From Ianthella basta (Eukaryota > Porifera > Demospongiae > Verongiida > Ianthellidae), in contig OZ025868.1 of the NCBI GenBank assembly GCA_964019415.1, positions 7,094,159 to 7,158,158 of the forward strand: a DNA stretch of 64,000 nt, written 5' to 3'. Made by a program: the position numbers and the translations under genes. Below are positions 456 through 64,000 of this stretch, piece by piece. Each line of letters begins with the position of its first letter. Positions within the stretch are counted from its first letter, which is position 1. The notes beneath the pieces were generated by a model, which worked only from the letters and a program-made list of their open reading frames with translations, did not search any database and was not told the DNA's origin.

Positions 456-3400
456 CTTGCTTGAATATAGTTCTGTGTTGGCACTGCTTGGTGTCACAGT
501 GCCATTACCAGTTGTCATTGCAACACGTGCTGTCATAGCAACATATGTTGTTATGGCAACTCTGGACGGCATACCAATTACTTTGCTTGCATGCAGAGAA
601 GGATCTGTGGTTGCCATGATGACATGAGTTGTGGTGGGACTCATTGTAGCAACACTGTAAATTGGTTGGGGACTGCTGTCAAGTGTAGGGACCGTCTTGC
701 TTGTGTGGAGAAACCAGACATTTGTGTTGTTGCCATGACAATGGATGTAGAAGCATGTGTATTACTCACCAGTGTAGCAGCTGTGGTAGAGCTGGTCTGA
801 GATGGATCTGTTTGAATGAATGGCATGAAGTATGTAGCATGTTAATACATATAAACTATGTGATATATAGTATCCCTCCATCCTCATACAATGAACCTTT
901 GTAATAGCGTACATAATATAGGCAATTTGATTCTAAAGTATATGTAATTATGTTGAAACTGGTTTGAGAGCAATCACGTATCATAATTTGTACCTAGATG
1001 AACACCAATAACAGGTAGCTTCGACAATGAAGGTCTTTGTTAGTCCACATCTTGTTTCTGTACACAGCTAACAAAGTCCTTCATTGCTGGAAATTCCTCC
1101 AATCATACTTCATCTACGCTGCTTGATTAACTTTCAAATCAGTTTCAATGGATCTCTATACAATGTAACAATAGACCTATGTCTATGGCATTTCTGTCAT
1201 GCACAGATGTTGCACACATACACCAGAGTGAGTTGGACAGCAGGCAAAAAGGTTAATTGATCTAGTTCTGTCTTAGTCCTCATCAGCTCCATCTGTCCCC
1301 TCCTCATCTGTAGTAGTTCCTCCAGTAGCAGGGTCTAACACAATGGGAGTGACAAAGGCACAGCTGTGACTCTGTTTCAAATTGTGCAAGTAAATATGTT
1401 CAAAGGGAAGTATGTGTCACTGAATGGCTCATCTTAAACTACTAATGCACCAAACCATGTCATGTCAAAGCCACAAGTGTTTGTCACTCTACCAACTACC
1501 AGGACTGTGCTGTGTCATTGTTAGGTATACCTGTGGGTGGACCAGCCAATGGAGTTGTGGTCTTGTTGCTAACTGGATTAGCAGCCTCTGCTGTTGGTGA
1601 GGGTCATGTTGTCTGTGTGGCACTTGTTCTGAGAGAGGTTGCCTGCATTGTAAAAAGGATAGGTGTACAATGACTACAGTAGACAGGGTAATTTGAATCA
1701 ATTGTTAATTATCATGCTTCAGTGAATGCTTATTGTCAATGTTGTTTCTGATCATTTGTGTTCTTAGACACTTTCACACTCCATCGAGCTGTACACGTGT
1801 ACTTCATTATTTATGCAGCTGAACCTAACATCTGGAATATAACGTTGGTTGGGGGTATTTTCACATCGGGAACAGTTCAGAGTAGCAATATCAGAACACT
1901 GAATTTGTACATTTCTCATGAATGACCTGGTAGAAAATGAAAATAGCTATAGCCCGGGCCCTTATTGCTATAGCCCAGGCCCTTCTTGCTATACATAGCC
2001 AGGGCCCTTACTGCTGCTCAGTATGTGTAGTGGACTTTGAGGGCTGCTCTGAAATTTATTCTATGCCCCTTCCATGAATGAAAGTGTTTGCAAAAATAAA
2101 GTTGATGTACTTTATTGCTTTGCTCATTTTATAGCCTGTACTTGTACCATAGTAATGTTATGCTCACATACACTAGTAACATCAGTGACAAGACAAAAAT
2201 ACCACTACCTTGCTTGAATGTAGTTCTGAGTTGCTGCTGGTTGGCATAACTGTGCCAGTACCAGTTGTCATTGCAACACTTGTTGTCATGGCGACATTTG
2301 TTGTTATGGCAACTGTGGATGTCACACCAACTACTTTGCTTGCATTAAGAGAAGGAGCTGTTGTTGCCTTGGTGACATGAGATGTGGTGTGACTCATCAT
2401 AGCAGCACTGTAAACTGGTTGGATACTGCTGTCTGGTGCAGGGACTATCTTACTTGAATTTAGTTCTGAGTTGGCACTGCTTGGTGTAACTGTTACAGTA
2501 CCAGTAATCATGGCAGCAGTTGTTGGCATGGCAACATTTGTTGTTATGGCAATTCTGGATGTCACACCAATTACTTTGCTTACATTAAGAGAAGGAGCTG
2601 TGGGTGCCATGGTGACATGAGTTGTGGTGGGACTCATCATAGCAACACTGTAAACTGGTTGGGTGCTGCTGTCAAGTGTAGGGACCGTCTTGCTTGTGTC
2701 AGAGACACCCGACATTAGTGTTGTTGCCATGACAATGGATGTAGTAGCATGTGTATTACTCACCAGTGTAGCAGCTGTGGTAGAGCTGGTCTGAGATGGA
2801 TCTGTTTGAATGAATGGCATGAAGTATATAGCATGTGTTAATATGTATCAACTAAGTATGTGATTTAGTGTATGTATGTGTGTGTGTGTGTGTGTACAAT
2901 ATGTTTGAGGGAAATTCTTGTAACATAGCAACACTCCAAGAACTGTTGCAATAGCTTACTTATATAGTTTATGCAATTTGATGCTAGAGTATACTAATTA
3001 TGTTGAATCTGATTTGAGGACAATCACGTACCATACATATACATGGATGAACACTGATACGTTTCTTCTACCAAGAAGCTTAAGGTCATTGTCAGTTCGT
3101 ATCTTGTTTTGTACACAACTAACTAAGTCCTTCATTGTTGGAAATTCCTCCAATTCATCTGCGCTGTGCGATTTACTTTCAAATCAGTTTCAAACTACAT
3201 ATCTCTGTACAATATAGTAATGGACCTATCTCTATGGCGTTTCTGTCATACACAGATGTTGTACACATACGTACACCAGAGTGAGTGTATGTGTTAGCCG
3301 GCATGCAACAAACGTTAATTGATCTACTAAGTCTTCTTTCTTAGTCCTCACCAGCTCCATCTGTCCCCTCCTCATCTGTAGTAGTCCCTCCAGTAGTGGG

Positions 3401-4227
3401 GTCTAACACAATGGGAGTGACAAAGGCGAAGGCACAGCTGTGACTCTCTTTTGTGTGTTTTAGATTGTGCAAGTTAATATGTTTAAAGATGTGTGTCACT
3501 TTCTATCTTGCTGTCCTCTCACCTGTATGCACAGAGCTACATGCATTGTTTTGATATTTGCTACCTTGCTATGGAATGTGCCCATGCTGTGTGAAAAGTG
3601 TTGCCCACCTCTGACAATCAATGTCACTGTCTCACTCTCCTCTTCTTTGTTGAACGGCTTAGTATAGCACTGATACGTGGTGCCATTATACTCCACTGAT
3701 ACATGCAGCTGGCAAAGTGAGGTTATAAGTAGCTGCACATCCACTGCTAGTGATGGTAATATAGTAGTTGTGTTCATAGTTGCTCAGTTCTGTCTCCAAA
3801 TTGTTTGATTCAAAGTCATCCCCATTGATGGTAAAGTAAGGGTAGCTCAGTGCTGGTCCCCCAGTGTAGCTGCACTGGATCACAACTTTATCATTAATAT
3901 TCACCTCATTGCCTCCAATAATGCTAATATCTGCAGTAGCAGGGCCACCTGCATACATAGAGCAGTACATGTGTGTTTGAGAGCAGTCTACAGAATGCCA
4001 CAGCAGCCTTCAATTAACCTAAGCAAGCAGACTCAATTGCACATTATTTAGGACGGAATACATAGAAATGTGACCTGACATTGTATAATAATGCCAGCTA
4101 TTGAAATCAACATTAGGCCACTGATTGTACTAGTTAAATTAAGACACTTACAAAAGCCTGCAACCTTTCCAGTGATTCGCAGTAGCACAATGAGAAGTGC
4201 TGCAGTCTTCCAAAGCTGCCAGACCAT
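456..4227 (-). pseudogene. Family 1 Ig-stalk receptor copy A, disrupted and cut by the window edge
   Basis: Exons in transcript order are signal peptide 4227-4152 (starts MVWQLWKTAALLIVLL), Ig 3948-3609, hinge 3402-3352, double-length stalk 2801-2209, second stalk 1642-1531, a relic hinge 1334-1284 and a relic stalk 807-456. TM and tail exons would lie left of position 1. Several lesions are visible. The Ig exon is 340 nt instead of 336 because of a +4 insertion near 3710, and it stops soon afterwards. The second stalk exon has CAA replaced by TGA. The relic hinge donor reads AT instead of GT. The relic stalk is 352 nt, which breaks frame. Copy C carries the same lesions, so inactivation preceded the duplication. 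A spliced product bypassing the Ig frameshift cannot be excluded. Confidence 0.82.
1946..2012. repeat. Intronic minisatellite, second cluster in copy A
   Basis: Three units of the same roughly 20-bp motif (ttattgctatagcccaggcc type) lie between the stalk exon (ends 2209) and the second stalk exon (starts 1642). Confidence 0.75.
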
Positions 4228-63000: not shown

Positions 63001-64000
63001 ATCTCCTATGCAGGAGGTTGTTCTTACAGTCTAACCATGTACAGTAGCGCTTCACATGCAACGCTTTTGCATAAACTGGTTTGGATGTACCTAATACTGT
63101 GCTTCACTACTTTTATTAGTTACCTCCAGTTGTTGGCTCAGTTGTTGGCTCAGCTGTAGTTGATGCTGTGCAAGCAAGAAGAGTGGAATATATACATACA
63201 TGACATTGCACTCTAGAATAATACAATATAATGTGTATGTGTATGTACATGTACTGTGTTTACGTATGTGATGTACACAATTGGGATTGGTGTTCTTGTG
63301 TGCATATCTGAGAAAGTGTCTATCAATTTAAACATGCATTAATGTATGCCTATGAAACGGTATTATAAGTGATGTGTTTCAGAGATACCTGTAGTTCTTG
63401 GTTCAGTTGTGGTAGATCCTGCACATGCGAGGAAGGTGAAGCATTGCATCATACCTACTCTTGTGTAATAGGTGTGCATGTTTATGCATACGCATGTACA
63501 CTGTTTTCATGCTATAGATCTGTACTGGAGTATGCATGGTTAATGTACAGTATACTATGTATATGTATGTGTATATTCGTGGGTGTATCTGTACATTGGG
63601 TCGTGTGCATTAACTGCGGATGCCTGCTTAACTCAAAGCATACATACTTAACACGGCATCCATATCTGTCAGTCTAGTACCTACAATGATTTTTAGTTAC
63701 TGTCGATGATAAATAGCACTAACCAATGACAATGAGGGTCACGGCGTTACTGACAATGTCTCCATCATTGAAGAAGCACTGATGGGTAGTGCCATTGTGA
63801 GACATCTGGACTTCAGCAAGAGTCAAGTTGTAATAGGCTTCACCAATAGTGACAAACTGATAGTGGTGCTGGTAGAACGGCAGGCTTTCACTCAGCGAGT
63901 CACTACTGTAGTTGACTCCATTGATCCTGAAGTTGGGTGCGCGATATGAGATATCTCCAGTGTAGCTGCACTGAATGGTCACTGCATCCCCCTCATTGAC
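60003..64000 (-). CDS. Gene Y: multi-Ig receptor with YVDM tail, 5' truncated by the window
   Basis: Exons in transcript order are Ig-a 64000+ to 63724, three short hinges 63418-63389, 63165-63124 (TTAEPTTEPTTG) and 62886-62851 (STRPTSGTIAS), Ig-b 62648-62295 (354 nt), mini exon 61862-61843 (20 nt, 1-0), stalk 60992-60944 (49 nt, 0-1), TM 60634-60536 and tail 60142-60003. Phases agree throughout. Ig-a has VTIQCSYTGD and NGTTHQC. Ig-b has VRIRCQYVGE and NNTVYQC. The TM reads SLWLAVLLPIVCVIVIVVSA. The 45-residue tail is basic and contains FPYVDMSSSP (YxxM, the PI3-kinase p85 SH2-binding consensus) and SLHTLL where an ITIM would be. The 20-nt and 49-nt exons mirror stalk1 and stalk2 of family 1, which supports common ancestry. 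Confidence 0.8.
60355..60418. repeat. (GT)n microsatellite in the gene Y TM/tail intron
   Basis: About 32 GT units with GT-rich flanks from 60310. The equivalent intron of the damaged copy holds the G-rich minisatellite instead. Confidence 0.95.
61608..61771. repeat. MITE-like palindrome with CAGTGAAACCTGTCTAAGA ends
   Basis: The left end, acagtgaaacctgtctaaga, faces tcttagacaggtttcacggt at the right end. The interior contains gacctttatagagagg. It lies within the gene Y intron between the stalk exon and the 20-nt exon. It is a non-coding, non-autonomous element. Confidence 0.8.
62136..62234. repeat. (GT)n microsatellite
   Basis: About 49 GT units in the gene Y intron just downstream (transcript sense) of Ig-b. 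Confidence 0.97.

Follow-up and report, generated by a model that had tools for sequence, protein, structure and literature searches.

A tandem array of predicted V-type immunoglobulin receptors in the sponge Ianthella basta

Gene organization of the array

We analysed a 64,000-nucleotide stretch of the Ianthella basta genome (G000:C1:7094159-7158158; "the window" below means this whole stretch) and found a tandem array of genes for predicted single-pass immunoglobulin (Ig) receptors. The genome comprises 209,087,449 bases in 96 contigs, one of which, C96 (21,233 bases, 20,000 of them read), is the mitochondrial genome, where TGA codes for Trp and one gene specifies an ATP synthase subunit 9 (atp9) of 78 residues. 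The presence of atp9 on mitochondrial DNA is a mark of sponges, chiefly demosponges. Exon mapping with splice sites, using the exons of one unit (E) as queries against the window and 50 kb on either side (flanks that partly read N), located six units of what we call Family 1 in the window: five genes (A-E) and a truncated copy (F). Genes X and Y, together with a broken copy of X and a relic of a Y tail exon, bring the total to ten receptor units, every one of them minus-strand (Table 1). The initial annotation had noted eight or more related minus-strand units built as single-pass Ig receptors on one exon plan, and this count is borne out. Five further Family-1 units, U1-U5, lie in the left flank.

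The common plan consists of a signal peptide (SP), an Ig domain, a stalk, a transmembrane segment (TM) and a tail. In Family 1 the SP exon begins MAWQLWKTTALLIVLLGITGKVAGS and ends in phase 1, followed by the Ig exon (1-1), three stalk exons (St1, 1-1; St2, 1-0; St3, 0-1), the TM exon (1-1) and the tail; stalk exon 2 is rich in Ser and Thr. Unit E splices into an open frame whether this exon takes its short or its long form. In B and D the GT/AG sites are present and all modelled exons are open, and U5 is open throughout under the unit E model. Other copies are damaged, as the annotation had already noted in speaking of pseudogenes: in both A and C the Ig exon has gained a net 4 bases, identically in the two, and stalk exon 3 contains a stop, whereas in U4 the AG preceding the TM exon is gone. 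The GT after stalk exon 1 is missing in U1-U3, A, C and F, which may use another splice form. Neither a TM nor a tail exon of unit F was found by exon mapping. Two units, near 6.79 and 6.84 Mb, are broken and almost identical to each other, and their tails extend beyond the usual stop. Units D, C and A each have, roughly 2 kb upstream, an extra SP-like match (MVLQLWRLAALLIVLLAVT; 34904-34960, 25102-25160 and 5856-5914, respectively) with no adjoining Ig exon match, and in A and C a 240-bp tandem repeat lies within the Ser/Thr-rich stalk exon (2204-2696 and 21456-21948).

Gene X encodes two Ig domains, a TM and a 48-residue acidic tail lacking YxxI/L/V. Gene Y, which is cut by the window end, encodes two or more Ig domains, a stalk of short Thr-rich exons, a TM and a 33-residue tail with the motif YVDM; both tails are as first described. 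The broken X copy and the relic Y tail lie in the interval from E to F, so that a block of X and Y has probably been duplicated in among the Family-1 units. Upstream of Y, the Ig exon at L022:5355-5696 (minus strand) looks by eye much like the distal Ig of Y and may represent an additional domain of Y or a paralog of it. Between 23 and 29 kb beyond the window, two long Tyr-rich open frames (L024:3019-3675 and L024:8290-9300, minus strand) have receptor-tail-like starts (AEKN.../AKKN...), NPSY and YxxV; neither matched Pfam at E 0.1. At 49043-49966, long open frames of low complexity, rich in Pro, Ser and Cys, run over a G-rich minisatellite (period 13) in which GC skew is strong; they are probably an artefact of the repeat and not a gene.

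Self-comparison confirmed the recent duplications that the annotation had suggested, with pairs at 98.5-99.7%, and the Ig exons are identical within the pairs U4/D and U5/B. Recent Family-1 copies arose by segmental duplication. Genome-wide, Family-1 tail exons gave twelve matches and one partial match, all on C1 between 6.75 and 7.14 Mb; the Family-1 Ig matches (25, including X and Y exons and fragments) and the X-distal Ig matches (18) are likewise confined to C1, at 6.78-7.17 Mb. Among the best 150 of 1377 candidates scored in a genome scan with Pfam ig (PF00047), further dense exon groups on C8 (1.75-3.49 Mb), C21 (1.2-2.7 Mb) and C19 (5.77-6.15 Mb) outscore this receptor family, and the Ig repertoire of the sponge genome looks large.

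Table 1. Receptor units and duplication arms located in the window (SP, signal peptide; TM, transmembrane segment; St, stalk exon)
Feature	Position	Strand	Details
Unit A, broken	456..4227	-	SP 4149-4227, frameshifted Ig 3609-3948, stalk exons 456-3402; TM and tail just outside window
Unit B, every modelled exon open	9798..13707	-	SP 13629-13707, Ig 13076-13414, stalks 12807-12863, 11930-12282, 11171-11282, TM 10524-10628, tail 9798-10042
Unit C, broken	18253..23473	-	Frameshift in Ig 22855-23194 and stop in stalk exon 20783-20894; open TM (18998-19102) and open tail (18253-18494)
Unit D, every modelled exon open	28443..32957	-	SP 32879-32957, Ig 32330-32665, stalks 32061-32117, 30587-30939, 29841-29952, TM 29197-29301, tail 28443-28672
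Unit E, reference model	38476..43206	-	SP 43128-43206, Ig 42578-42913, St1 42309-42365, St2 40836-41188 (short form 41151-41188), St3 40162-40273, TM 39516-39620, tail 38476-38720
Broken X copy	46261..47894	-	SP-like 47849-47894, Ig1 start fused to Ig2 end (47322-47581), tail 46261-46406 (97%)
Relic of gene-Y tail exon	48846..48951	-	86.8%
Unit F, truncated	50534..52894	-	SP 52816-52894, Ig 52262-52597, St1 52016-52072, partial St2, St3 50534-50645
Gene X, complete spliced frame	56385..59246	-	SP 59195-59246, Ig1 58611-58964, stalk 58424-58513, Ig2 57738-58085, 57145-57168, TM 56718-56801, acidic tail 56385-56530
Gene Y, 3' part	60003..64000	-	Ig 63722-64000 (continues past window), stalks 63389-63418, 63124-63165, 62851-62886, Ig 62295-62648, 61841-61860, 60944-60992, TM 60536-60634, tail 60003-60103 (YVDM)
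About 16-kb duplication arm (adjoining 9.5 kb at 98.8% and 6.9 kb at 99.7%)	10081..26387	.	Self-comparison; partner arm from outside window to 7175
13.2-kb segmental duplication arm (98.5%)	27460..40691	.	Self-comparison; partner arm about 48 kb away, outside window

The Ig domain and the cytoplasmic tails

The predicted structure of the Ig domain is a V-type fold (predicted local distance difference test score 93.6; fold searches). In unit E its cysteines C25 and C92, which correspond to the B- and F-strand cysteines of the Ig sandwich, are 67 residues apart, within the expected 65-75 or so, and both columns are invariant in the eight Ig sequences of the window. The Pfam ig profile PF00047 scores 28.9 bits for unit E (cut-off 21.8). 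At the position of the C-strand Trp of canonical V-set domains stands F38, also invariant in 8/8, and the unit E Ig exon contains no Trp at all. Relative to E, the Ig exons are 99% (D), 89% (B) and 81% (F) identical, and the four X and Y Ig exons 33-45%. Because of these identities and the open spliced frames of E and X, chance is excluded as the source of the family likeness.

Nine Ig sequences were compared, seven of local types together with P0010 and P0012, and 40 of their 111 sites are variable. The variable sites are concentrated in the FG loop (7/9) and in residues 58-68 (8/11), compared with 5/28 in the A-B region, 0/4 in the C strand and 0/7 in EF. Fisher tests gave 0.010 for the FG loop, 0.016 for residues 58-68 and 0.023 for the A-B region, values that are uncorrected and refer to segments picked after seeing the variation.

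The tails of the array are nearly uniform within Family 1. All ten that were compared carry NPVY and PPAY, followed at the end by [IV]xYHDV[TN]GRKSM[AV]VES[LV]Y[DN]Y[IV]Q, in agreement with the tyrosine-rich tail first reported (NPVY, YHDV...Y[ND]YI). The claim that the receptors end in differing tails consequently stands between the three gene types (Family 1, X and Y) and fails within Family 1. In 10/10 tails both tyrosines, in [IV]xYHDV and S[LV]Y[DN]Y[IV], fit the consensus of the immunoreceptor tyrosine-based inhibitory motif (ITIM), [S/I/V/L]xYxx[I/V/L]. In ITIM receptors the phosphorylated tyrosines bring in SHP or SHIP phosphatases. When the unit E tail was shuffled 20,000 times, at least two ITIM-like motifs arose in 0.8% of cases, and a pattern like the corresponding activation motif (ITAM), allowing Val, in 3.0%. 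A strict ITAM (YxxL/I x6-12 YxxL/I) was sought in the unit E tail and rejected, its first motif being YHDV with Val at +3 (YHDA in one of three relatives). Three of four candidate tail relatives from a database search, 90, 70 and 60% identical and located on short contigs, all keep SLYDY[IV]Q.

In each of the three types examined (Family 1, X and Y) the hydrophobic run of the TM contains no Lys, Arg, Asp or Glu, and the tails carry no kinase domain, the exons reaching a stop after about 80, 48 and 33 residues, respectively. Exon matches in the order SH2, SH2, protein-tyrosine phosphatase (PTP), which is the SHP layout, lie at two places on C16 and mark putative SHP-like genes. No Syk-type kinase was found in a kinase search covering the best 130 of 2397 candidates, and a crude kinase-motif scan of two SH2 neighbourhoods was empty. 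The same kinase search revealed dense kinase-domain groups in single open frames on C3, C11, C8 and C16, and large PTP exon groups lie on C6 (about 5.9-7.1 Mb) and C12 (about 5.4-6.1 Mb; best 150 of 689 candidates).

Relatives on other contigs

The initial annotation had proposed searching the reconstructed proteins against databases and predicted structures, which yielded Ig relatives and a V-type fold and no informative names. Reconstructed unit E gave three Ig matches in the protein database, 47-58% identical. A profile search returned 60 proteins at E <= 0.001, none of which carries an informative name. ENA is the only source of 49, another source supplied 3, and 1 comes from several; the other 7 are sourceless and mostly the window's own. 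All five Ig types have relatives on other database contigs, relatives being assigned to one contig by equal contig size only. An apparent contig of 1,143,732 bases holds exact matches to U1, U2, U4/D, U5/B and F. Another of 1,281,248 bases matches U3 and X-proximal at 99% and both Y domains at 100%, and carries a Y-proximal relative at 82% and a Family-1 Ig, P0012, at 87% to U3; direct search for a counterpart of P0012 in the readable parts of this assembly found nothing above 88%. Because of the 99-100% matches, the sequences suggest that the 1,281,248-base contig represents another haplotype or assembly of the same species. If it is conspecific, the array would differ between haplotypes; such a difference would not be shown by a contig from a sister species.

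A third apparent contig (5,810,606 bases) carries relatives of four Ig types: Family-1 (P0001, P0040), X-distal (P0047, P0048), X-proximal (P0052) and Y-distal (P0028). A tree of 59 sequences, from which 15 of 74 were excluded because they were tail proteins, short pieces or exact copies of local units, resolved five Ig groups; X-distal is weakly supported (89/77), P0059 is unplaced, and the program warned of long branches at deep joins. The local Family-1 types and two sequences from the 1.28-Mb contig form one clade (98/95), separate from the other Family-1 relatives (94/92). On this grouping, the gene types look older than the split of these lineages, and Family 1 looks to have multiplied independently. 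The array is a real sponge Ig superfamily (IgSF) complex with relatives elsewhere and one member family in rapid turnover.

Possible functions and known systems

We propose, with a probability of roughly 0.6, that the array is a sponge V-type Ig receptor complex that evolves by birth and death and signals via its tail tyrosines. The structure of the array supports a recognition receptor with tyrosine-based tail signalling. If expressed, the products would be type-I membrane proteins with one (Family 1) or at least two (X, Y) V-type Ig domains outside the cell and Ser/Thr-rich stalks. The Ig domain would most likely bind a cell-surface or microbial ligand, and clustering could lead to phosphorylation of the tail tyrosines and to recruitment of SH2 proteins. 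In Family 1, the two ITIM-consensus tyrosines would suit an SHP-type phosphatase or another SH2 adaptor; YVDM of gene Y would suit PI3-kinase p85, and gene X might act as a decoy, as a partner or by another route. Renewal of Family 1 by tandem duplication and decay would allow copy number and Ig repertoire to vary between individuals. The array is a plausible candidate for an innate immune or allorecognition complex.

Several findings weigh against this proposal. The Pfam V-set profile scores 13.3 bits against the unit E Ig exon, below the cut-off of 26, and the PDB is rich in antibodies, which favours V-domain matches. Not all tail motifs are conserved, YHDV being YHDA in one of the three tail relatives and NPVY being NLVY in another; NPVY and PPAY fit endocytic or ubiquitin-sorting tails equally well, and the X tail has no recognised motif. 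The ratio of nonsynonymous to synonymous substitution rates (dN/dS, Nei-Gojobori), pooled over non-independent pairs, is 0.65 for the Ig exon (9 units, the frameshifted A and C excluded), next to 1.21 for the SP exon (11 units, few changes), 0.28 for the TM (10) and 0.52 for the tail (10). In the variable segments (residues 45-68 and 95-103) the corresponding ratio of proportions, pN/pS, is 0.93, compared with 0.43 in the rest of the Ig exon. Because of this split, the Ig is, as far as sequences tell, a constrained framework with loops that appear relaxed or mildly diversifying. Positive selection on the Ig was considered and rejected, the pooled ratio being below 1; the exceptions, the SP exon and 3 of 13 15-codon Ig windows at 1.0-1.25 (the remainder lying below 1), rest on few changes.

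Could the Family-1 Ig domains be polymorphic self-labels, acting homophilically or against X and Y, so that matching decides tissue fusion or rejection? The cluster layout, the recent duplications and the variation in the FG and 58-68 segments agree with such allorecognition proper, as does, weakly, P0012, which has a best local match of 88% and comes from an apparent contig otherwise matching the locus at 82-100%. P0012 is a single sequence, however, two copy pairs have identical Ig exons, the diversity of the array is modest, and neither the pooled Ig ratio nor more than a few sparsely changed codon windows points to diversifying selection; we therefore regard this explanation as doubtful. 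Unlikely, in our judgement, is an adhesion or endocytic family without immune signalling, in which NPVY, PPAY and YxxV/I would be clathrin-adaptor, Nedd4-type and AP2 sorting signals and the Ig would take up or hold a ligand. All four motifs are of the sorting type by consensus, the tail is Pro-rich, and the Family-1 TM has no internal charged residue, but the full FxNPxY is absent (Thr at -5), NPVY is lost in one of the three tail relatives, all of which keep SLYDY[IV]Q, and a V-type Ig with FG-loop variation would be odd for a plain cargo receptor. That the array is mostly decaying duplicates, with one or two working copies amid neutral segmental duplication, is very unlikely: breakage affects A, C and F as well as the extra copies of X and Y, D/U4 and B/U5 lie within near-identical blocks and pN/pS in the loops is about 0.93, yet B, D, E and the flanking U5 are open in all modelled exons, and the low TM ratio and the pN/pS of the remaining Ig exon suggest constraint.

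Returning to the V-type receptor complex, we consider only tentatively, and with no great expectation, that it forms the receptor half of a sponge self/non-self system, that is, a haplotype-variable complex with ITIM-like, PI3-kinase-type and silent tails, the set of gene types being conserved among related sponges. If true, this would put V-type Ig recognition coupled to SH2-phosphatase signalling in the sponge lineage.

Two parallels had been drawn in the initial annotation, with the Hydractinia Alr complex and with vertebrate paired-receptor clusters. The Hydractinia Alr cluster contains pseudogenes. The available text of two papers describes, at second hand, a Hydractinia allorecognition complex of 41 IgSF genes with V-set and I-set domains and ITIM/ITAM motifs on candidates (PMC11999971, PMC12065747). 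The two arrays share a tandem cluster of single-pass Ig genes and ITIM-type motifs; Hydractinia is a cnidarian, whereas the sponge Family 1 has one Ig domain and a Ser/Thr-rich stalk, and the likeness claimed is one of layout and motif. A PDB sequence search with the unit E Ig exon gave nothing better than E 0.14, and Alr structures were not among the matches listed in the fold searches, which tells nothing either way. The vertebrate KIR, LILR and NITR families are clustered Ig receptors with differing tails, and activating paired receptors bind adaptors via a charged TM residue. This parallel is the weaker one: clustering and differing tails are shared, but the phylum is unrelated and none of the three sponge types has a charged residue inside its TM.

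The fuhc fester co-receptors (FcoR) of Botryllus are described, in the part of the review available, as multigene type-I receptors with V-type Ig domains and ITIM, hemITAM (half-ITAM) or YxxI/L/V tails (PMC12065747). The ascidian cluster thus resembles ours in layout, in being a multigene set of type-I V-type Ig receptors, and in Tyr-motif tails of ITIM type; its sushi and C2-type Ig domains and its pairing with fester were not seen in the sponge array. Ig domains on sponge surface molecules are reported, in the text available, for a receptor tyrosine kinase and an adhesion molecule of Geodia (PMC12018476, PMC11999971), from which the array differs in having no kinase domain, many copies and Tyr-motif tails. 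The long-standing allorecognition candidate of sponges is, in the available part of one source, the aggregation factors (PMC5450542). These are extracellular proteoglycan complexes, unlike Ig receptors. We know of no relation between them and an Ig receptor. Among the matches listed in a literature search by title and abstract start, with bioRxiv and most subscription papers outside its scope, no sponge cluster of this kind was found. According to the review in its available part, the proteins put forward for allorecognition in sponges, cnidarians and ascidians are not conserved, and the cnidarian and ascidian systems converge on ITIM/ITAM signalling (PMC12065747). A sponge V-type Ig complex whose tails are ITIM-like would add to them a third case that can be tested, and the array offers sponge biologists a concrete locus to genotype.

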